A DNA stretch of 64,000 nucleotides, taken from Cladochytrium replicatum. Its lineage: Eukaryota > Chytridiomycota > Chytridiomycetes > Cladochytriales > Cladochytriaceae. Every line of letters starts with the position of its first letter. The stretch's first letter is position 1. This document shows positions 21,963 to 64,000 of this stretch, one piece after another. The DNA is taken from assembly GCA_025526935.1 (NCBI GenBank), contig JAHLKD010000089.1, positions 163,585 to 227,584 on the forward strand, read 5' to 3'. The translations under genes were made by a program, and so were the position numbers. The notes under the pieces are model-generated. The model was given only the letters and a program-made list of their open reading frames with translations, ran no database searches and was not told the DNA's origin.

Positions 21963-24535
21963 ATGCCTAGAATACTGGGATCTTCGTTGACCTTCAGGGC
22001 CACCGCTGCCATCGTGATCGCGACGTTGATCGTTCTCTCAATTGCATGGCACTCATGGCACTCGAACAATCATGTAACGGAATTGAAAATCAGATCGCCT
22101 TCTTTCAAATACCATACTCACATTGTCGATGATCTTGTAGGCTGATCGTCCTGATCTCGCCCGGCGTGGGTACAGGAGCCTTGCGGGTCAAGCGTACGCC
22201 GTCAACCCGGATCCTAGCAAGAGCCCAAACCGGTACCACCACCAGGCTGTAGCCAAGTCGACCACTACCACCGCCGAGGTTGCGTCCCCAATTGCCGAAC
22301 CTGACAGGGCGAAGCCCACAGCCGTGGCGACAGCAAAACCAAAAGCGAAGAAAGCAAAAAAGGGCAAGGGGAAAGGGAAAGGCAAGAATGATAAGAAGAG
22401 GAAGGATCGGAAAGGGAGGAAGGGGAAGAAGAGTAAAGTTGGAAACGTGAACGAGTCGAAGACCACGACTACGACGAGCGGAGGTGAGATCTCACAACGC
22501 AATTCTAAGGAGAACTTGATTGAACAATAATGGTTGATCTGCAGGTTACGGCTACGAAACAACTTCGACCAAGGGAGGTACGACGACCCAAGGCTATGCC
22601 AATGCAGAGACCACTACCACCACGACGACGACAGCGACAAGCGCCGAAACTTCCGTTAGTGGCAATGGATACGGAAGCTCTACCACCACGACCACGTCTG
22701 CCAATCCTTACGTAACCACTACGACGACAACGACAAGCGTCGAAACTTACGTCGGTGGCAATGGATACGGAAGCTCTACCACCACGCCCACGTCTGCCAA
22801 TCCTTACGTAACCACGACGACGACAACGACAAGCGTCGAAACTTCCGTCGGTGGCAATGGATACGAAAGCCCTACCACCACGACCACGTCCGCCAATCGT
22901 TACGAAACCACGACGACGACAACGACCTCGGTCAACGGGCACGAGACCACGACAACAACTACGACCTCGGTCAATAAATATGATACAACCACGACGACAA
23001 CAACCACGACCTCGGTCAATAAATATGATACAACCACGACGACAACAACCACGACCTCGGTCAATAAATATGATACAACCACGACGACAACAACCACGAC
23101 CTCGGTCAATAAATATGATACAACCACGACGGCAACAACCACGACGGCAACAACCACGACGGCAACAACCACGACGGCAACTACCACGACCTCCGTCAAC
23201 ATGCACGACACGACCACTACAGCAACGACGTCAGTCAATGCACACGAAACATCAACCACGACCACGAGTTCGGTCAACATGCATAATACAACGACGTCGA
23301 TTGCCTCCACCACAACGTCGGTCAACATGCACGATACAACCACAACCACCACGACGACCGTAAACAATAACTACAAGTACCAGTACAACAATAACGACAA
23401 GCAGAAGGAGGCGGAAAAGAAGAAGGAGGAGGAGAAGAAGAAGCGAGAGGAGGAGAAGAAGAGGAAGGAGGCGGAGAGGAAGAAGAAAGAGGAGGAGAGG
23501 AAGAGAAAGGAGGCGGAGAAGAAGAAGAAGGAGGAGGAAGATAGGAAGAAGAAGGAAGCGGAAAAGAAGAAGAAGGAGGAGGAAGATAGGAAGAAGAGGG
23601 ATGAAGAGAGGAAGAGGAAGGAAGCGGAGAAGAAGAAGGAGGAGGAAGATAGGAAGAAGAGGGATGAAGAGAGGAAGAGGAAGGAAGCGGAGAAGAAGAA
23701 GGAGGAAGAATATAGGAAGAAGAGGGATGAAGAGAGGAAGAGGAAGGAAGCGGAGAAGAAGAAGAAGGAGGAAGAAGATAGGAAGAAGAGGGATGAAGAG
23801 GGGAAGAAGAAGGAAGCGGAGAAGAAGAAAAAGGAGGAGGAAGATAGGAAGAGGCAAGAGGCGGACAAGAAGAGGAAAGAGGAGGAGAAGAAGAGAAAGG
23901 AGGAGGAGGAGAAGAAGAAGGACAAGAAGAAGAACAGGTCGACTACGACGTCCAAAACAACCACAACCACAACAACCTCAACGACCAAGACTTCACAGAC
24001 CTCCACAACCACGACCACTTCGACCAAAACGACCACCGTTACAGTCACACCTTCTCCGACACCGGTAGCCGTGTCTGGTTCTGGCGTCGTACCCTCCGAT
24101 CTCGACGCTTTCGTAGTTAGCGACGATGGAGCCGATGTCCCGCTTGATTTCAAGCTCACCGACTACTTTGCAGCTGATGACGATAAAGGCGGCGCGGAGG
24201 GCGCCGATCGTGTCGACGTAATCAACGCAGAGGAACGTGCGGCAGAAGATGAAGATCGTGAGGAGGGCAACAAGGGTAAGGTCAGTGCAATCGCAGCGCC
24301 AGACGACACGGGAGTCACTGAAGACGACGAGGGTGATGTCGAAGCTGCCGACCGAACGGAAGAAACAGAAGACGAGGATGAAACGCACGAATCCGGCAAG
24401 AGCGATGCCGCTGCGTTCGAGGATGGCGAGGACGCTGCCACTCTCCCGATCGATGCAGCACAATACACGGAAGAACTGGCGGATGCACAGTTGTTAGCTT
24501 TGGAAGAAGCTGACGACGAGGAAGTTGGAAACTGA
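21963..24535 (+). CDS. Signal-anchored low-complexity protein, paralog 2 (KGK, Thr repeats, charged coiled coil, acidic C-terminus)
   Basis: Exons 21963-22073, 22141-22483 and 22545-24535 close in phase to 814 aa. The signal anchor (ATAAIVIATLIVLSIAW) is followed by a Lys-rich tract (KKGKGKGKGK), Thr-rich repeats with SVNKYD and SVETSVGGNGY units, then about 170 residues of EAEKKKKEEEDRKKRDEE-type charged helix. A second Thr-rich linker leads to an acidic C-terminus with VPSDL..LDFKLTDYF. The first exon is 111 nt as in the upstream paralog and both introns are GT..AG. The layout (anchor, stiff charged rod, acidic end) suggests an extracellular spacer or wall-linked protein; this is inference. 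Confidence 0.75.
22963..23190 (+). repeat. 45-bp tandem repeats (SVNKYD units) and 15-bp repeats
   Basis: Four copies of a 45-bp unit start at about 22966, 23011, 23056 and 23101 and are almost identical. They run into four copies of a 15-bp unit (GGCAACAACCACGAC) to about 23185. All stay in frame. Confidence 0.85.
23500..23880 (+). repeat. Imperfect repeats encoding the charged coiled coil
   Basis: Four or five units of about 57-66 bp, each containing GAGGAAGATAGGAAGAAG and GCGGAGAAGAAGAAG, follow in tandem. They encode EEEDRKKRDEERKRKEAEK-type sequence. Confidence 0.75.
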
Positions 24536-36558: not shown

Positions 36559-37995
36559 ATGGCACAGACACCCATCGTACCCATCGAGATTGTCGACCAG
36601 ATCCTGCTCGCATTGGGGAAGTGCGCTCGTGCGCCAAAGCTCGCTTTCAGATGTGCATCCCTCTTCAGACGCAGAAATGTGCAAACTGAACTCTTGGACT
36701 TGGCCATACCCATGGACAATGCCAGCGCTCCCGGCTTTGTGGATGCGCTGCAGTTCCATGTCCAGAACCGCAATAAAGAAATGGTCTACACCTGCAACGC
36801 AATGGACTCAGCGAGCGCAAACGGCCACGTCCACATCCTTGAATGGTGGAAGGCAAGCGGACTTGAACTCGAGTACACTTCCGACGCTATCGACAATGCA
36901 TCCGCGAACGGTCAACTCGAGGCCCTTAAATGGTGGAAAGAGAGCGGATTGAAGATGGAGTGGACTTGGGCCTTGACCTTTGCAACCACGAATGGACATC
37001 TTCACGTGCTCGAGTGGTGGAAGTCGAATGGAAGTGTGACCACTACCCGAACGTACGATGCGTACTACCTGGACTCCGCGAGCACCCAGGGTCACGTCGA
37101 CGTACTCGATTGGTGGATGTCGACGGGCACCGATATGGCTTGGAGCGAACAGGCGATGAGCGGGGCGAGCCAGAACGGCCACTTGGGTGTTTTGGATTGG
37201 TGGAAATCGAGCGGACTTGAGTTGAAATGGGATGCAAACGCGTTGGATTTGGCGAGCTCGATGGGTTGTCTGCACGTGTTGGACTGGTGGAAAGCGAGTG
37301 GACTGGAACTCAAGTATACCAACACTGCGCTGGATCTGGCCAGCAGGGAAGGCTATCTTAAAGTTCTCCAGTGGTGGATAGACAATGGACTTCCTCTGAA
37401 ATACAGCACCTATGCGGTCGATTCGGCGAGCGAACATGGGCACCTCGACGTTCTCGAATGGTGGAAATGCAATACTCCGCGTCTCAAATATACCGATCTG
37501 TCCTTGATGGCAGCCAGCGCAAATGGGCATGTCGACGTACTACAATGGTGGAAATCGAGCGGGCTGGAGCTAAAGTATACCGAATTCGCAATGGACGCTG
37601 CGAGCGAGAATGGGCATGTGCAAATCCATGACTGGTGGATGTCTAGCGGGCTCGAGCTCAAGTGGAGCGCAGACGCTCTTGATTCGGCTAGCGCCAATGG
37701 CCATGTGAAAGTGTTAAATTGGTGGATTAAGAGCGGATTAGAGCTGAAGTGGAGCTACTATGCCCTGAATCGCGCAAGCGTGAACGGATACATCGATGTG
37801 CTCGAGTGGTGGAAGGCGAGCACGCTTGAGCTAAAATGGACCAGTGCTGCTATAGACGAGTGGGACCTGCCGGAGCGCTTATCTGTTCTCAAATGGTGGA
37901 AAGAGAGTGGTCTATTGACCGACGACAAAGCGAATGGCAGCGATGACCCAAATGACGACGATCAGCTGATAGGGTTGTATGGAGCCATGTGGTGA
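36559..37995 (+). CDS. F-box-like protein with WWK (ankyrin-like) repeats
   Basis: Single exon, 478 aa. The N-terminus (IVPIEIVDQILLALGKCARAPKLAFRCASLFRR) looks like an F-box. It is followed by about 12 repeats of 33-34 residues with the core A-x-D-x-ASANGHVxVLEWWKxSGLELKYT. The pattern of helix, turn NGH and helix resembles ankyrin repeats; proteins of this type form large families in chytrids (general knowledge, family name not certain). The repeats are near identical in their WWK and NGH positions but differ elsewhere. Likely role: protein binding, perhaps substrate choice for an SCF ligase. An in-frame upstream Met at 36412 overlaps the start of CRAL-TRIO copy B, which is transcribed divergently 102 bp away, so the Met at 36559 was chosen. 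Confidence 0.75.
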   Translation: MAQTPIVPIEIVDQILLALGKCARAPKLAFRCASLFRRRNVQTELLDLAIPMDNASAPGFVDALQFHVQNRNKEMVYTCNAMDSASANGHVHILEWWKASGLELEYTSDAIDNASANGQLEALKWWKESGLKMEWTWALTFATTNGHLHVLEWWKSNGSVTTTRTYDAYYLDSASTQGHVDVLDWWMSTGTDMAWSEQAMSGASQNGHLGVLDWWKSSGLELKWDANALDLASSMGCLHVLDWWKASGLELKYTNTALDLASREGYLKVLQWWIDNGLPLKYSTYAVDSASEHGHLDVLEWWKCNTPRLKYTDLSLMAASANGHVDVLQWWKSSGLELKYTEFAMDAASENGHVQIHDWWMSSGLELKWSADALDSASANGHVKVLNWWIKSGLELKWSYYALNRASVNGYIDVLEWWKASTLELKWTSAAIDEWDLPERLSVLKWWKESGLLTDDKANGSDDPNDDDQLIGLYGAMW

Positions 37996-55720: not shown

Positions 55721-57567
55721 TTAGCGCATAGAGACTCCCCCTTTGGACAAGGATGTCATAGAACGAATATCTGCGAGAGATCGGAGACCTAGGGAATCGC
55801 GGTGTTTGGTAAACTGAATACGGCCGAGAGTTTTGGTGAGTAAGTCAGCCATGTTCTCTGAAGAGGAGATTTTGGTGACACATAGATCAGTACCGTCGTG
55901 ATGGGCAGTTGCAAAGACTTTTGAATCTACATGTTTGTTAAGGTCAGTGCGAATGTAACCTGATTTAATTTGGGAAACACAAGCAGCGTTGTCTTCATAG
56001 ATAGTGGTCGGTCCATTGAGTATCGTAAGAGGTAATCGTAAGTCTGTAAGTATAGTTGTGAGAAGTTCTCTGATCCAGATAATTTCCTTAGCTGTGTCCC
56101 AGAGAGCAAGAATTTCTGAGTGCATAGTAGAGGTGGTAGGCATATCCTGTTTCGTTGATCGCCAGGAGATAGCTGCGCCACAGCAGGTTAGTGCGTATCC
56201 GGTTTGAGCTTTACCAGAGGAGTAGTCAGACATGAACGAGGCATCGGCATAGGCAACAATCGAAGCGGGTTTTGTTCGATCAAAGTAGAGCCCATAGTCC
56301 ATAGTCTGTTTTAGATATTTTAGAATCATTTTACCTCCTTCCCAGTGTCTCATAGTAGGGGCTTGGCTGTGGCGAGCTAGAAGGTGCACTGCAAATGCGA
56401 TGTCAGGTCTACTTTTGTTAGCAAGGTAAATTAAAGATCCAATTAGGCTCATGTAAGGATAACCGGGTGAAAGAATGTGTTCTCCTTCGCGGAGGGGACC
56501 ATATTTGTCGTTCCAGGGTTCAATTTGTCTGACGTCAAGTGGGATGAGTGTAGTATCATTGCAGTCAGACATACCAAATCTGTCAAGAATTTTCTTAGTG
56601 TAAGCCTGTTGGTGGACAAAGAGACCATTGGGAGTACGAAGGAATTCGAATCCAATGCATGATTGAGCTAATCCAAGGTCTTTCATTTCAAATTCAGATT
56701 TGAGAAGTGTTTTGGTTAGTCGAATAGCTTCAGGAGTTCCCATAATGCTTAGGTCGTCTACATAGATTCCGATAATAACCCATCCATCAGCAAAGGCTTT
56801 ATAGTAAATAGGAGGTGCTTTAGGCATAGAGAGATAATCTCGAGAATCGAGGAACTTCGCAAGTCGTTCGAACCAGCATCGCCCAGATTGTTTAAGACCA
56901 TAGAGGGCTTTAAGAAGACGGATTCCAGGGTTGTCATAAACACCTTTGTAATATAGGCCTTCAGGAACCTTCATGTAGATCTCGCAGTCAGTGTCTCCAT
57001 AGAGGTAAGCAAGTACAACGTCCATAATATGAACTTCGACGTTAAATATAACACTTAGTGCAAGGATAATACGGTAGGTAGTAGAATCCATAACAGGGGA
57101 ATAGGTATCTGAGTATTCAAATCCAGGTCGTTGATTGAATCCTTTTGCTACAAGGCGTGCCTTAAACCTAATAATGTTTCCATCAGAATCTCGTTTTGTA
57201 ACAAAAACCCATTTGTGGTCCACAAGTAGTTTGTGGGTTGGTACTTCCTGTACAGGGCCTCCAACTTGTCGTTTCAAGAGGCCAGTAATTTCTTCTTTCA
57301 TCGCAGTTTGCCATTGGGGCCAGTCAGGTGAAGCTTTGGCTTCTTCCAGCGTGATGGGGTCTGGTCGATATTGTGAGTGGGAAGGTTGTTGCTTCTTTGA
57401 TTTGGAGTTTGTTGAAGTGTTGTCTGTAGCCATGATGGTTTTGTACGTGGTGAAAGCGAATGCATCGTCTACAAGGGAACGGGTGACGGTGATGTTACTG
57501 AAGAGGACCTCGTTGTTGGTAGGAGGTTTGAGAACAAGTTTGATTCGAGGTTTAGTTGATGAAGTCC
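55721..57567 (-). CDS. copia polyprotein, reverse transcriptase and RNase H part
   Basis: The frame is open from the candidate acceptor at 57568 to the stop at 55721. After a short linker (LEEAKASPDWPQWQTAMKEEI) come the reverse transcriptase motifs: WVFVTKRDSDGNIIRFKARLVAKGF, TYSPVMDSTTYRIILAL, MDVVLAYLYGD and the catalytic YVDDLSIMG. RNase H follows with YADASFMSDYSSGKAQTGY, SEILALWDTAKEIIWIREL and YEDNAACVSQI, which hold the usual acidic residues. No internal stop occurs. An ATG at 57433 is available, but the frame clearly starts before it. Confidence 0.85.
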
Positions 57568-57829
57568 CTGAATGTAGTAAGTGGATAGTGAGTGGTTGGG
57601 ATTTGGGATTTGAAAGATGTTAAAAAAAATAGTGAAGACTAATAAAGATAGAGAAAAGCATCGAATCCAGCTCTCGAGCGATATGCCGGACTTCCAAACA
57701 TACACCACAAAGAGTAAGGACCTAGCTAGCAAACAACTGTCAGAAAGCGAGACGGAGGGCCTTTGAACATGGATTTACCAATGAACGTTTTCCCAACTCC
57801 ACAACTCCATCAAGATGCTGCTTACATAC
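57568..57829 (-). other. Intron-like interruption of the copia pol frame
   Basis: The integrase frame reads ..SAQTG and then stops two codons later. A strong donor (CTG|GTATGTAAG) lies at that point and an acceptor (TTACTACATTCAG|GG) at 57568; removing the 262 nt between them joins integrase and reverse transcriptase in one frame. The segment has multiple stops and no coding content. Confidence 0.5.
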
Positions 57830-59780
57830 CAGTTTGAGCACTGTGACTACAATTTGAGGCGTTACCCACTCCCACGGTGGCGCCGGCATTATCCACTACC
57901 ACAGTGGTGCCAGAGGGTCTGTTTTCCACTACCACAGTGGTGTCCCCATTGTCATTGTCACTTTCAGGTTGCACATGAGATGTTTTTGGCCTATTAATAT
58001 GATAGGTCTTTTTGCGTGTGTTGTTGACGTGGCGAGTAGGTGATGGAGTAGTGTTTCGTTTGCGAGGTTGTTGGGGTGGTTGGTCGGGTTGTTGTTGTCG
58101 AAGGTGTTTAGGCTGACCACCGGGTGCGCGTCGAACAGGAGGGACGTTCGCTGGTGTTGGTGTACTGTCTGGTGGTGCATCTGATGTTGATTTGCTGGGG
58201 CGTTGTTGCTTTCGTGATGAAGGTGCCCGAATGATTGTGGGTGGTTCAGCAGCAGCAATCGCACGTTGAGTGAGAGATTCGCGGTTTGCTGGGTTCGGGT
58301 GAGGGAATGGGATCTGAGAGGGCCAGTTATCGATTGGGAATACTGTCAGAGGTGAAGATGATGGTAGTTGTGGTCTTAGGTAGGGATGTAGTTCTGGGAA
58401 AGAAGATTCGTCAAAAACACAATCAGCAAAGCGAGCAGTGAACACATAGCCTGTATATGGGTCGAGGGCCTTGATAATTTTTGGTGTATTCGCTCCGATG
58501 TAGATGGCTAATGAGCGAACTGAGGAGGTTTTTGTTCGAGCTGGAGGTGGTACAGGAACCCAGACAGTGCAGCCAAAAATCCTAAAATGGTTGATTGAGG
58601 TTGGTAAACCAGATTCTACTTCTGCAGGGATTGCATAGTCCAGGGATGAGTGAGGTAGGTGGTTCTTGATGTCGCAGGCGTGTTCGAATGCAAGGTGCCA
58701 GTAATTTTGCGGGAGGTTGCAGCCCATAAGGAAGGTTCGGCCCATTGTGACGATGATGTCAATTCCTCGTTCAGCGATGCCGTTCATCTGAGGTACGTAG
58801 GGAACACTGGGCTCGATAGTAATCCCTCTTGCTTGGCAGAAGTTTTCAAATGCAGCACTGTTCTGGTTATTGTCGAATCGTATCGCTGTGATTGGGTTGT
58901 CTGGGTGCTGGATGTTGTGGGAATGAATCTGTTGAACTGCAATGGCAAGGAACTGGTCAGTGGATTCAGATGGTGTAACTTTCATCAAACGTGATTTGGT
59001 CTTGATTGTCAGCTCAAATCCAGTATATCGGCCAACAGCTGGTGGGTAGATTGGTCCGGCATGGTCAGAGTGTAACATTTCGCCAAATCGTCGGTTGGTT
59101 GACTTGTCTTTAGTGTCGAAGGGGGCCGTCTTGAATTTTCCTTGTGCACATGGTTGACAGATTTCTTCATCAATGTCTGAAATGGAGGATGGGATGTCAG
59201 ATTGACGTAAAGGAATGAGATGAGGGTGGTGTCTGATCAAGAGTTTCATGGAATCCGAGCTCTGATGCCCAAGTCGAGCATGATATCGTTTGTAGGCGGT
59301 GGAACGGTCTTTGATTGTGGTTGGTGGTGTAATTTTGCGGCCAGAGAGATCCGTCATCGCAATCATATTGGCTGAAAGTTGAGCTGGGCGAATTCGTGCG
59401 AATGGGAGGCTGAGGTCAGGGTGACGGTCAAGTACTTCAACTGTCAGGTCAGTGGTGGCATCTGTAATGTAAGTTAGTCGGGATAATGCAGCAAAACTTT
59501 CCAAGTTGTTGTCGTGGAGGACATCGACAGGTATGACATTCTCTGTGGCTTCTGGAGCGAGAACAGCAAGGGTAATGTTAAGTACAGTTCCATTTTCCAA
59601 CATAACTCGGGCGCCACCAACTCCAATACCAAATACTTCACGTTTCCTTTTGATTGTTGTAACCCATTGGAGATCCGGACGATTTTCCAGAGTCAGGAAG
59701 AATTCGCGGTGTCGTAGGACAGTAACTCGAGCACAGTTGTCAATAAGGCAGGGACTGTTGATTCGCTGTCGGTGAAGTCG
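57830..59780 (-). CDS. copia polyprotein, protease-like and integrase part
   Basis: The frame opens just upstream of LIDNCARVTVLRHREFF, a degenerate retropepsin-like site, and runs to the intron-like segment. The integrase zinc finger is YHARLGHQSSDSMKLLIRHH..CQPCAQGK. The catalytic core has LHSDHAGP (first Asp), IRFDNNQNSAAFENF (second Asp) and MNGIAERGID (Glu), so the DDE triad is complete. The C-terminal region is Pro/Gln-rich (TFDN-type repeats: TTVVVENRPS and TTVVVDNAG). It overlaps the gag frame in a different phase near 59700-59780, so pol is probably made by frameshift. Confidence 0.75.
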
Positions 59781-60167
59781 ACGATTGGGGGTGAATCTTC
59801 ATGGTTGTCCTTTCCTACAGTAATGTTAGCAAAGTTGAGCATATACATCCCTGCAGCCGGTGGTTCCTCATCATTGCCGTCGTGGGCATAGTTCTCATCG
59901 TAGTAATATTCATAGTCCTGGTCATTACATTCTTCCTCTTCGTAGTACTCGTTGTCGACAACTTCTTCAGTCTGCTGGGACATTTGATCTGATGGGTAGG
60001 GAATATCGGAATCAGTATGAGAAAACATAAAGTATTGTTGTGAAGGTATGGGTTTGTAATTGCTAGTTACTGCGCGACGGCGAGGGCCATAAGAGTCTTG
60101 TTCGTTCTGGTAGTTAGGTTGTGGGTTCTGGGCCCTGAAGGCTTGGGCTTCCGCATTGGAGGTCGTG
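59693..60167 (-). CDS. copia gag-like region, N-terminus cut off by hAT insertion
   Basis: The frame (..NAEAQAFRAQNPQPNYQNEQ, then acidic EEVVDNEYYEEEECNDQDYEYYYDE and PPAAGMYMLNFANITV) lacks a CCHC knuckle in the visible part and ends at 59693. Its first residues, beyond about 60168, come from the terminus of the inserted hAT (GRVHLVNGPGPDPKDP) and are not gag. The pol frame follows in another phase. Confidence 0.5.
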
Positions 60168-60174
60168 CACACTA

Positions 60175-60340
60175 AGGATCGGCGGGTTTTAGGGTCTTTC
60201 GGGTCGGGTCCGGGTCCATTGACTAAATGTACCCGACCCGAGTGCCGGGTTTTCATGGAAAATTTTCGGGTCGGATCCGGGTCGGGTATCGGGTCCAGTA
60301 GGAAAACCCTTCTCGGGTCAAAAGTCAGACCCGAGTAAAA
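60175..60340. repeat. GGGTC-rich terminal region
   Basis: Many copies of GGGTC/GGGTCGGGTCC and their complement (ACCCGACCCGAG) occur in about 165 bp, forming imperfect palindromes. Similar CGGGTC-rich ends are known in some hAT elements of plants and fungi, so this is probably the outer terminus. Confidence 0.55.
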
Positions 60341-60382
60341 CCCGATGTGATAGAGAATCTAAAACGAAGCTATTGTTCTTTC

Positions 60383-61190
60383 TGTCCACGCGGACACTTT
60401 CCAAGAAGACGCAATATAAGTTTTGTATGTATCAAACAATTTTGCATCACAACGGACATCGAGGCATGTATTTTCTGTCCACCCGGACACTTTCTCAACT
60501 CATTGACGTACTTCAGTTATCTCTACCCAATACAACTAACCTCTCTATCAATGTTACTAGCAATAAGATTCTGTCCACCCGGACACTTTCTTAACTCATT
60601 GACGGTACTTGAGTGATCTCTATCAAGTACAACTAACATCTCTATCAATGTTACTAGCAATAAAATTATGTCCACCCGGACACTTTCTCAACTCATTGAC
60701 GGTACTTCAGTGATCTCTATCAAGTACAGCTAACCTCTCTATCAATGTTACTAGCAATAAGATTCTGTCCACCCGGACACTTTCTTAACTCATTGACGGT
60801 ACTTGGGTGATCTCTATCAAGTACAAACTAACATCTCTATCAATGTTACTAGCAATAAGATTCTGTCCACCCGGACACTTTCTCAACTCATTGACGTACT
60901 TCAGTTATCTCTACCCAATACAGCTAACCTCTCTATCAATGTTACTAGCAATACGATTCTGTCCACCCGGACACTTTCTCAACTCATTGACGTACTTCAG
61001 TTATCTCTACCCAATACAGCTAACCTCTCTATCAATGTTACTAGCAATAGGATTCTGTCCACCCGGACACTTTCTCAACTCATTGACGTACTTCAGTTAT
61101 CTCTACCCAGTACAACTAACCTCTATCAATGTTACTAGCAATACGATTCTGTCCACCCGGACACTTTCCAAGAAGTCACAACGGAAGTTC
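60383..61190 (+). repeat. Left subterminal array, nine units of about 96 bp
   Basis: The core TGTCCACCCGGACACTTTC starts at about 60383, 60476, 60572, 60669, 60766, 60864, 60960, 61056 and 61150, a spacing of 93-98 bp. Between cores the sequence CAACTCATTGACGG..TACTT..ATCTCTA..TACAACTAAC..CTCTATCAATGTTACTAGCAATA is also repeated. The core holds an imperfect palindrome (TGTCC..GGACA). A degenerate tenth core (TGTGCACCTGGAC) is at 61238. Confidence 0.9.
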
Positions 61191-61288
61191 TGTAACAAAC
61201 AATTTCTACCACGACAGACCTCGAGAGCTGTGCTTTCTGTGCACCTGGACATTAGAGTCGGTAACGTTCCAGCCACACCACAGCAAAA

Positions 61289-63706
61289 ATGGACGCCGCC
61301 TTTGTTAAACCAAAGCGTAAGGCAGCGTCCGACGCAAGCCAAAGACTAGTGGACAGTCATCCGCTTGACACACGGAAGCGAAGTCTGCCAGCCCCCCAAA
61401 TTTCAGAGGCGTCCAGCGAGGGGAACATCATGCAGGACAAACGCAGACGTGTATCAGGACACTGTGGCAACAACAGCGCTCGAGAGCCGAGCTCCACATC
61501 TTCTTCCAATGACTCCAGCGAGTTGGGCCCGGCTTCTCAGCATGCACCACAGCTTCCTGCCGACGTTAGTTTTGCTGACTCTTCAGTGCGACAGGAGCCT
61601 GCAGCTGGATCAGTTCAACCATCAATGCTTTCATCAGACGCAGATGTTGATAGCATGTCGGACTGTAGAGGTAGTCGAGGCGGCATAGCGAAGGATTACT
61701 ATAAGGTTGATAATGGTCTGAGAACATGTTTGGTTGCGAAATGCAAGTGGAGCCAGAAGGTCGATAAGACGGGATCAACAAAAAACTTCCTCCGGCATCT
61801 GAAAAACCACCATGGAAGTATTGCCAGGTCGCTTGGACTGTTGGACATCGTCCCCAAGGGACAACAGACATTGAATTTCGGCTTGCAGGAGAAGGAGCAA
61901 AACTTTGTGTTCAATCCAGACGTAGCGTGGCGGTCGATTTTGGACTGGATTGCTGCAGACAATCAGGCTTTTACTGTTGTGGAGAACGAGTTCTTTGTCA
62001 GCATGCTGAAGACTTTTCAGCCAAACTATACACCAAAGACGGCAAAAGCAGTGAAGCAAAAGGAGATGGATCTTTACGATAGGCAGAAGGAGCTCATTAA
62101 AGGTCTGATTGTTGGTTCGCCTTCAAAAGTATCAATAACAGCTGACTGTTGGACATCGAAGAACCAGATTTCTTTTCTTGGAATTACTGCCCACTTCATC
62201 ACGAAAGAATGGGAGCCGCAGGACTTGCTGCTGCAGATGATTCCGATGGTTGGAAAGCATGAAGGCGTCGCCATGGCTAGTCAGCTTGTCAAGTGTCTGG
62301 ATGAATTTGGCATGCTATCGGGTGAACGCTTATTGTGCATTACAACCGACAACGGTTCAAACAACTTTACCATGAGTGCTAAGCTGGAGACGCTCTTGGA
62401 AGATAGGGATATTGCGTGGTCTGCAGAAACTCAACACATGCGGTGTATGGCACACATTATCAATCTTGCAGCAAAGGATTTTATCGATACATTCGCGCCC
62501 GCAGGGGACACAGTCGCAAATGACGATAACTCCGGCGTTAATGTCATAAACCTTCTTCGACGGCTAGTCAGAGGAATCCGGTCTTCCCCAAAACGACGAA
62601 GCTCATTTATTGATTCGTGCCGATTTGTGAAACTGGTTCCTCTATTCCCAATTATCGATGTGACAACTCGCTGGAATAGCACGTTCTATATGGTCAAACG
62701 AGCCTTACAGCTACGAGAGGCAATGGACAAAATATGCTGGATTGAAGATTCTTTGAAAGATTGGTCAATAAATCCAAAGCAATGGGAGGTCCTACAGAAG
62801 ATCCGGGATGGTTTGAGTGTTTTCGAGGTTATATCAAAGGCAATCGAAGGGTCTAGATATCCAACACTTCCGCTTGTTATTCCATTTTACAACGATCTTA
62901 TCGATCAACTGGAGGACCTAGAGGATGCAGAATTAGATGAAACTTTCACCAAAGCATTTCGAAATGCACTAGATAAGCTGAGAATATATTACTCAATCGC
63001 TAAGAGCCCGTGTTTAGCAGTTGCTACGGTACTCGATCCTCGTTTTAAGGATCAATATTATCGATTTTCAAAGGCTTGGGAGAAAGATGTAGGAAGGGAT
63101 CAGGTCACCCTAGTGCGGAAAGTCTGGGAGGAATCGTATAAGTCACGGAAAATCAAGAACAGTGGTGCCGATGTTTTTGGAAACACGCCAGAACGTCGAC
63201 ACGATTCGAGCGGAGCTTCCGGTGATAGACAGAAAAAAACGGACGCTGAACGCTTGAGAGCCATTAGATCCGTTTTCATCTGGCAAGAAGAGATTCCTGA
63301 GGAAAAAGATGAGCTGGATCGCTATCTTGGCGATCAGGTACTCCGCGGTATTGATTCTGATGGGAAGCCAATCAATATTATGGACTGGTGGAAGACCGTT
63401 GGAAGTGTGAACTTTCCAGCCCTAAGCCAGATGGCAATGGACTATTTAGGAATACCAGCAACAAGCGCTCCAGTCGAACGAAAGTTTTCAGCCGGGGTTG
63501 ATTTGGTACCTGCAACTCGCAACCGCCTTGCTCCAAGAACAATAAATGCGTTGATGTGCCGTCATGACTGGTTGCATCAATTGAGTGCTGAAGAACCGTT
63601 CAAAAATGATTCCCTAGATTCAAAAAGTGATGTTAGTGAGGATTTTGTAAAGGTGCATAATTTTGGCGAGGATTTTGATGTGGTATTAGAGTTGGAAGCA
63701 AACTGA
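61289..63706 (+). CDS. hAT transposase (BED finger, RNase H-like core, C-terminal dimerisation domain)
   Basis: An uninterrupted frame of 805 aa. The first 130 residues are basic and disordered. A BED-type zinc finger has C147, C152, H170 and H174 (CLVAKCKWSQKV..FLRHLKNHH). The catalytic core shows ITADCWTSKNQISFLGITAHF (Asp about 286), CITTDNGSNN (Asp about 354), RCMAHIINLAAKDF and DVTTRWNSTFYMVKRAL. LAVATVLDPRFK precedes the C-terminal hAT dimerisation domain (MDWWKTVGS..FPALSQMAMDYLGIPATSAPVERKFS..NRLAPRTINALMC). All expected parts are present with no stop, so the element may be autonomous. There are no introns. No gene other than this lies in the element. Confidence 0.92.
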   Translation: MDAAFVKPKRKAASDASQRLVDSHPLDTRKRSLPAPQISEASSEGNIMQDKRRRVSGHCGNNSAREPSSTSSSNDSSELGPASQHAPQLPADVSFADSSVRQEPAAGSVQPSMLSSDADVDSMSDCRGSRGGIAKDYYKVDNGLRTCLVAKCKWSQKVDKTGSTKNFLRHLKNHHGSIARSLGLLDIVPKGQQTLNFGLQEKEQNFVFNPDVAWRSILDWIAADNQAFTVVENEFFVSMLKTFQPNYTPKTAKAVKQKEMDLYDRQKELIKGLIVGSPSKVSITADCWTSKNQISFLGITAHFITKEWEPQDLLLQMIPMVGKHEGVAMASQLVKCLDEFGMLSGERLLCITTDNGSNNFTMSAKLETLLEDRDIAWSAETQHMRCMAHIINLAAKDFIDTFAPAGDTVANDDNSGVNVINLLRRLVRGIRSSPKRRSSFIDSCRFVKLVPLFPIIDVTTRWNSTFYMVKRALQLREAMDKICWIEDSLKDWSINPKQWEVLQKIRDGLSVFEVISKAIEGSRYPTLPLVIPFYNDLIDQLEDLEDAELDETFTKAFRNALDKLRIYYSIAKSPCLAVATVLDPRFKDQYYRFSKAWEKDVGRDQVTLVRKVWEESYKSRKIKNSGADVFGNTPERRHDSSGASGDRQKKTDAERLRAIRSVFIWQEEIPEEKDELDRYLGDQVLRGIDSDGKPINIMDWWKTVGSVNFPALSQMAMDYLGIPATSAPVERKFSAGVDLVPATRNRLAPRTINALMCRHDWLHQLSAEEPFKNDSLDSKSDVSEDFVKVHNFGEDFDVVLELEAN

Positions 63707-63759
63707 TGATAACCCACTCCTTTAAATATAAATTGTTGTTTAGACTGTTCATCTGTTGA

Positions 63760-64000
63760 AGTACCGTCCAGGAGTTGAGAAAGCGACCGCCTGGACAGAA
63801 TCCTATTACAAGTAGTATTTGTAGAGAGGTTGGTGTACTTGATCGAGATCAGTGAAGTATCAGTGAAGTACCGTCAATGAGTTGAGAAAGTGTCCGGTGT
63901 GGACAGAATCTTATTTGCTAGTAACATTATTAGAGAGGTTAGCTGTACTTGATAGAGATCACTGAAGTACCGTCAATGAGTTGAGAAAGTGTTCCGGGTG
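63760..64000 (-). repeat. Right subterminal array, inverted relative to the left one
   Basis: Copies of the reverse complement of the 96-bp unit (GTACCGTC..ATGAGTTGAGAAAG..GGACAGAATC..) begin at about 63760 and recur near 63870 and 63970, running past the window edge. The first copy is the most diverged (GCGACCGCCTGGACAG). Confidence 0.9.

Follow-up and report, generated by a model that had tools for sequence, protein, structure and literature searches.

The right-hand end of the window (the whole 64,000-nucleotide stretch of Cladochytrium replicatum DNA analysed here) carries the left and central parts of a hAT transposon, which appears to interrupt a Copia-like retroelement. Window base 64000 is the final base of contig C89, so that the right array is cut there, neither the 560-aa second gene nor the right end of the element falls inside the window, and the right side was read from sister copies instead. 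The features are the following.

55721..60172, minus strand: Copia-like retroelement, into which the hAT element appears to have inserted at 60173 (ORFs and Pfam; class and interruption judged by eye)
60165..60172, no strand: left flank GTGCACAC, presumed half of an 8-bp target site duplication (TSD), TSDs being known from other copies; the other half would lie past the contig end
60173..60187, plus strand: left terminal inverted repeat (TIR) TAAGGATCGGCGGGT
60173..60352, plus strand: left subterminal region; nine CGGGTC/GACCCG motifs, found in the window and in the complete copy on contig C43, are likely transposase sites
60383..61251, plus strand: left internal array of 10 direct units with core TGTCCACCCGGACA (core search and repeat finding)
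61289..63706, plus strand: hAT transposase ORF, 805 aa (Pfam, Hermes match)
61727..61813, plus strand: possible BED-type zinc finger (C147, C152, H170, H174/H175), a C-x4-C and H-x3/4-H pattern at residues 147-175 standing by itself, without a Pfam zf-BED match
63757..64000, minus strand: start of the right internal array, inverted units; continuation known from other copies

Direct units of ~97 bp, the transposase ORF and inverted units thus follow one another where the first-pass annotation had placed them. The element itself, which that annotation started at 60168, has its left end at 60173, and its array of nine direct units holds ten cores at ≤2 mismatches (60383, 60476, 60572, 60669, 60766, 60864, 60960, 61056, 61150, and 61238), the lower count being due to imperfect first and last cores. 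Tandem Repeats Finder reported 7.2 copies of period 96 at 60473-61168 (score 1153). The inverted units run from about 63757 up to the contig end, and a search allowing ≤3 edits found a single core among them, at 63891 and with an indel. As annotated, the transposase ORF is open over 805 aa; however, the usual length elsewhere is 811 aa (28 of 30 copies), the window copy differing by one base at the last residues, and it shows further small differences from the sister copies near the contig end.

The hAT identity proposed earlier is borne out by the protein and by the DNA around it. The transposase matches Pfam Dimer_Tnp_hAT (PF05699, E 2.2e-20) and Hermes (E 2.3e-12), with hAT-like_RNase-H (PF14372) at E 6.1e-5, below the curated cut-off. 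It contains TADCWT, CMAHI, TRWNST, and SAPVER, which we take to be hAT motifs partly from the Hermes alignment and partly from what is typical of the superfamily. Short TIR, 8-bp TSD, and clustered subterminal motifs at both ends, as is typical of hATs, are all present. By its domains, TIR, TSD, and subterminal motifs, the element belongs to the hAT superfamily.

To obtain the whole element, 30 loci around the best transposase matches were read in the same genome, the window copy being one of the 30. The copy on contig C43 is complete (C43:380506-387615, 7,110 bp). From left to right, the element consists of a TIR with a CGGGTC cluster, about 10 direct 97-bp units, the transposase gene, inverted units, a spacer of ~65 bp at the turn, usually 3 direct units, and the 560-aa second gene; the second-gene stop is followed by a single degenerate core, then by CGGGTC-rich sequence, and finally by the right end. 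The left array has 10 direct units (cores at ≤2 mismatches) in 16 of the 26 copies with a visible left end and 7 to 9 in the other 10. Four to 9 inverted units were read directly in the 14 copies whose locus reaches the second gene, where the direct units preceding that gene number three in 12 copies, 2 in one, and 5 in one; copies whose locus stops short of the second gene show up to 14 inverted units before the locus ends. Hence, the arrays, which had been described as very long inverted ends of the element, are internal: the ends are made of the 15-bp TIR and CGGGTC clusters devoid of the core, and the right array is no right terminus, as the second gene sits between it and the right end.

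The other terminus and the 8-bp duplication, which the first-pass annotation had proposed to look for, were both found in sister copies. In the C43 copy, the 15-bp TIR is 14/15 identical between the left end and the reverse complement of the right end, and GCTCTCAC flanks the element on both sides. Nine copies were paired with a right end, and the left flank was visible in 7 of them: identical 8-bp flanks (GCTCTCAC, GTACTTGT, and GGCGCCAA) occur in 3 of these 7, the remaining 4 being two copies on contig C101 with exchanged flanks and two with non-matching flanks. Each of the two outermost 180-bp stretches of the C43 copy holds 9 CGGGTC/GACCCG motifs, a count that none of 5,000 single-base shuffles reached for either end, whereas the interior holds 0 in 4,848 bases and 1 in 2,036 bases (two pieces with a 134-base overlap). 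The core pattern TGTCC-N4-GGACA is absent from both outer 180-bp stretches of this copy. According to published descriptions, Kat1 has six copies of a hexamer between its TIRs (PMC4763223), a subterminal motif at either end of Herves is bound by its transposase (PMC3143072), and hAT transposases usually recognise their elements through such clusters (PMC4763223, PMC3143072). A further report describes CGG in most motifs measured for CGG-binding hAT-type domains; by the same report, these domains make up a subset of hATs, some prefer AT-rich DNA, and the sole fungal protein of this type tested preferred an AT-rich motif (PMC8097297). From the subterminal-cluster precedent and the CGG-containing motifs, the CGGGTC clusters rather than the arrays are likely to be the transposase sites, and by analogy with other hATs recognising subterminal repeats, we consider it probable that the transposase recognises the TIR together with these clusters. 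The CGG in the end motif may point towards a CGGBP/hAT-19 type.

The element is abundant and young. A transposase word is found 240 times in the genome (130 + 110, ≤2 mismatches), the right end 239 times (124 + 115, ≤2 mismatches), and the exact 22-base left end 186 times, so that the copy count called for by the first-pass annotation comes to about 240. Of 1,106 first-look candidates from a protein search, 56 were scored; all 56 are 97 to 100% identical, and 45 of them have no stop in the transposase. Across 30 transposase copies, 0 to 9 of 2,415 bases are substituted relative to the majority, making recent activity likely, where the first reading had spoken of possible activity. The non-synonymous share among the 30 most similar transposase copies is 0.94 of neutral (P = 0.89) and indicates no constraint, as expected with very young copies. 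Altogether, we lean, if only slightly, towards a recently amplified two-gene hAT that moves by cut and paste and carries internal inverted arrays.

Exact matches to the 14-mer core number 2,690 across the 50.5-Mb genome (1,288 on the plus and 1,402 on the minus strand), against 0 for its reversed control, which excludes chance. So many units could suggest a separate satellite that the transposon entered by accident; however, 98 of the 100 cores listed on contigs C1 to C3 have an element landmark within 6 kb, such zones cover 8% of C1 and 11% of C3, and the same arrangement recurs in the 30 copies read. Independent satellite DNA is contradicted by this distribution, an accidental encounter has next to no credibility, and the arrays are part of the element, as first assumed.

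Units of a second type, type B, stand at both edges of the left array; they differ from the main type except in the core and the next few bases, which are common to both types. Conservation was measured on 425 units (87 distinct) extracted without using the core. Among the 87 distinct units, the core has on average 1.07 minority units per column versus 4.98 elsewhere, and 13 of 84 windows are conserved as well as the core or better, i.e., core conservation over all distinct units is modest. When only the 30 unit types seen at least 2 times are considered, the core ties with the four windows after it as the least variable (5 of 84 14-bp windows). The arrangement of cores on one face of the helix, suggested earlier from their spacing, is not supported: at 10.5 bp per turn, the left array gives a resultant of 0.39, a value reached by 22% of random sets, and of the five periods tried only 10.7 stands out (0.4%).

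The size of the right array was estimated from the distance between transposase and second gene in the 26 of 56 listed transposase copies to which a listed second gene could be assigned, the remaining 30 being left out; in one pair, the match to the second gene began at residue 7 and its start was shifted by 18 bases. The estimates range from 4 to 34 inverted units and, at 97 bp per unit, lie within 0.04 of an integer in 25 of 26 copies, the exception (6.89) being a copy with an extra turn. The 34-unit array, on contig C23, is sized by distance and was not read through. Array growth and shrinkage by unequal exchange or repair between units is a reasonably probable process. Five copies of equal transposase bit score (1835.9) have 11, 13, 14, 15, and 16 units, and direct units of the deleted copies L080 and L081 run into the region preceding the second gene, two facts which would fit arrays devoid of function, i.e., a minisatellite arisen within the element and changing by unequal exchange, slippage, or repair. 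Nevertheless, the core belongs to the most conserved 14-bp windows among units seen at least 2 times (tied with the next four), it is common to two otherwise different unit types, and the left array keeps 10 units in 16 of the 26 copies with a complete left side, and we hold functionless arrays to be somewhat unlikely.

The number of right units rises with similarity to the window copy (Spearman 0.71, P = 5e-5, n = 26, the copies compared not being independent). Such a relation could arise if the cores were transposase-binding sites, as the first-pass annotation had suggested, in an accessory role: an internal reservoir raising the local transposase concentration in the manner of the long, repeat-filled ends of Galileo, whose tandem repeats are described as containing secondary binding sites for the Galileo transposase (PMC3688188, PMC3573991). 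We consider this unlikely: that very non-independence of the copies weighs against the size relation, the arrays are not terminal, CGGGTC clusters already occupy the ends, and the CGG-containing motifs reported for CGG-binding hAT-type domains (PMC8097297) fit CGGGTC better than TGTCCACCCGGACA. The geometry of inverted units, short spacer, and direct units would allow a long RNA hairpin, feeding or resisting RNA silencing or ending transcription; at the right-array turn of copy L049, 211 bp are 94% complementary around a short spacer. Geometry is all that speaks for such a hairpin and a conserved palindromic core would be left unexplained, so that we give it very little weight.

The second gene begins with MPRTTKKRA and encodes 560 aa; its ORF is uninterrupted in copies L063 and L066, and the L053/L062 copy carries a stop in it plus an insert of ~460 bp. 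No stop is present in 55 of 78 scored second-gene copies. Searches with the product yielded neither a Pfam family (best E 0.026) nor a solved relative (best E 0.84). A coiled coil was considered and rejected, Pfam matches to it being E 0.026 or worse and 297 of 500 shuffles scoring as well in a heptad test, which gives dimerisation of the second protein no support. Six second-gene copies, 4 of them chosen from the list of 78 as more diverged, show 37 synonymous, 53 non-synonymous, and 6 stop changes with one copy as reference, a non-synonymous share of 0.59 of neutral (P = 0.02 without stops). Seven pieces of older second-gene copies gave a ratio of 0.66 (P = 0.065). Such pieces, of 41 to 91% identity and some with frame changes, adjoin the copies read and place the second gene before the present burst.

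We propose that the palindromic cores would be sites for a dimeric element-coded protein, either the second gene product or the transposase, which would act on the promoters of both genes; action on both promoters is proposed on the ground that direct units point at both gene starts. This is the most likely of several readings and is offered tentatively. In its most elaborate form, the element would be a two-component hAT, in which a dimer of the second protein binds the cores and controls both genes, unit number tunes activity, and array growth helped the burst; taken as a whole, this combination is quite improbable.

Four short deleted copies offer a view of the element without its right array, as 3 to 6 direct cores at the left remain in all four and an inverted core in none. 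L081, which lacks the transposase and whose six direct cores extend up to the second gene's preceding region, and L082, which keeps part of the transposase, both have a perfect TSD; 7 of 8 TSD bases match in L079 and L080 has no TSD. The lack of inverted cores suggests that the right array may be dispensable. Amplified deletion derivatives were also sought, and the junctions of L079 and L082 each proved single-copy in the search, which points to deletion rather than amplification; mobility without the right array is unproven by these two copies.

Copies also seem to rearrange the genome. On contig C101, two of them (L049/L064 and L055/L068), ~10 kb apart and in opposite orientation, have exchanged flanks (GCCAGTAC and GCCGTATC), the pattern that an inversion through exchange between two copies would leave. 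The left flank of L054, on contig C3, is the same as that of L055 and matches a diverged second gene, which indicates that elements nest in one another, and a single inversion may be too simple a history for C101. Separately, at L059 on contig C31, one transposase is flanked on either side by a second gene and a right end, the two sides being oppositely oriented, which makes a large palindromic composite.

With Hermes, Kat1, and Herves, which are hAT elements, the present transposon shares transposase domains, a short TIR, an 8-bp duplication, and subterminal motif clusters, but it differs in having a 560-aa second gene and internal inverted arrays of 97-bp units. Spm/En of maize is a two-gene transposon encoding TnpA plus a transposase; it resembles the present element in having a second gene and short repeated internal motifs that may be the sites of its product, and differs in superfamily. 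Galileo (P superfamily) and Foldback-like elements, as described in the reports cited, likewise have inverted tandem repeats of variable number and inversions between copies (PMC3573991, PMC3688188); in those accounts, however, the repeats sit in the terminal inverted repeats, whereas the present arrays are internal, and the transposase superfamily differs. Membership in that group was rejected, as the outer 180 bp contain no core and the second gene separates the right array from the right end. Our literature search found no hAT with a second gene and internal inverted arrays, nor one with a dedicated partner protein, and the combination of second gene and internal inverted arrays is unusual for a hAT. 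Should the second gene act in transposition, the element would be a hAT equipped with such a partner. Moreover, ~240 copies, many of them very similar, with arrays changing in whole units, constitute a natural series in which to ask whether site number sets the activity of a transposon and how such arrays grow.

Among neighbouring features, the Copia-like retroelement comprises minus-strand ORFs at 55721-57433 and 57822-59603 and a gag-like one at 59693-60256; the second of these matches Pfam SH3_retrovirus (E 3.1e-10) and, below the cut-off, gag_pre-integrs (E 7.4e-6). To the right of hAT copy L053, a non-LTR retrotransposon-like element (L062, 2000-6000) shows endonuclease- and reverse transcriptase-like ORFs by eye, and L053 has apparently landed in it. 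Elsewhere in the window, a 478-aa ORF at 36559-37995 consists of repeated ankyrin-like stretches, and repeated ankyrin-like proteins of this kind are familiar from chytrid fungi. Dense tandem repeats with periods of 96, 45, and 66 bp occupy 22619-23934, partly inside a Thr-rich and Lys/Glu-rich ORF at 23201-24535.
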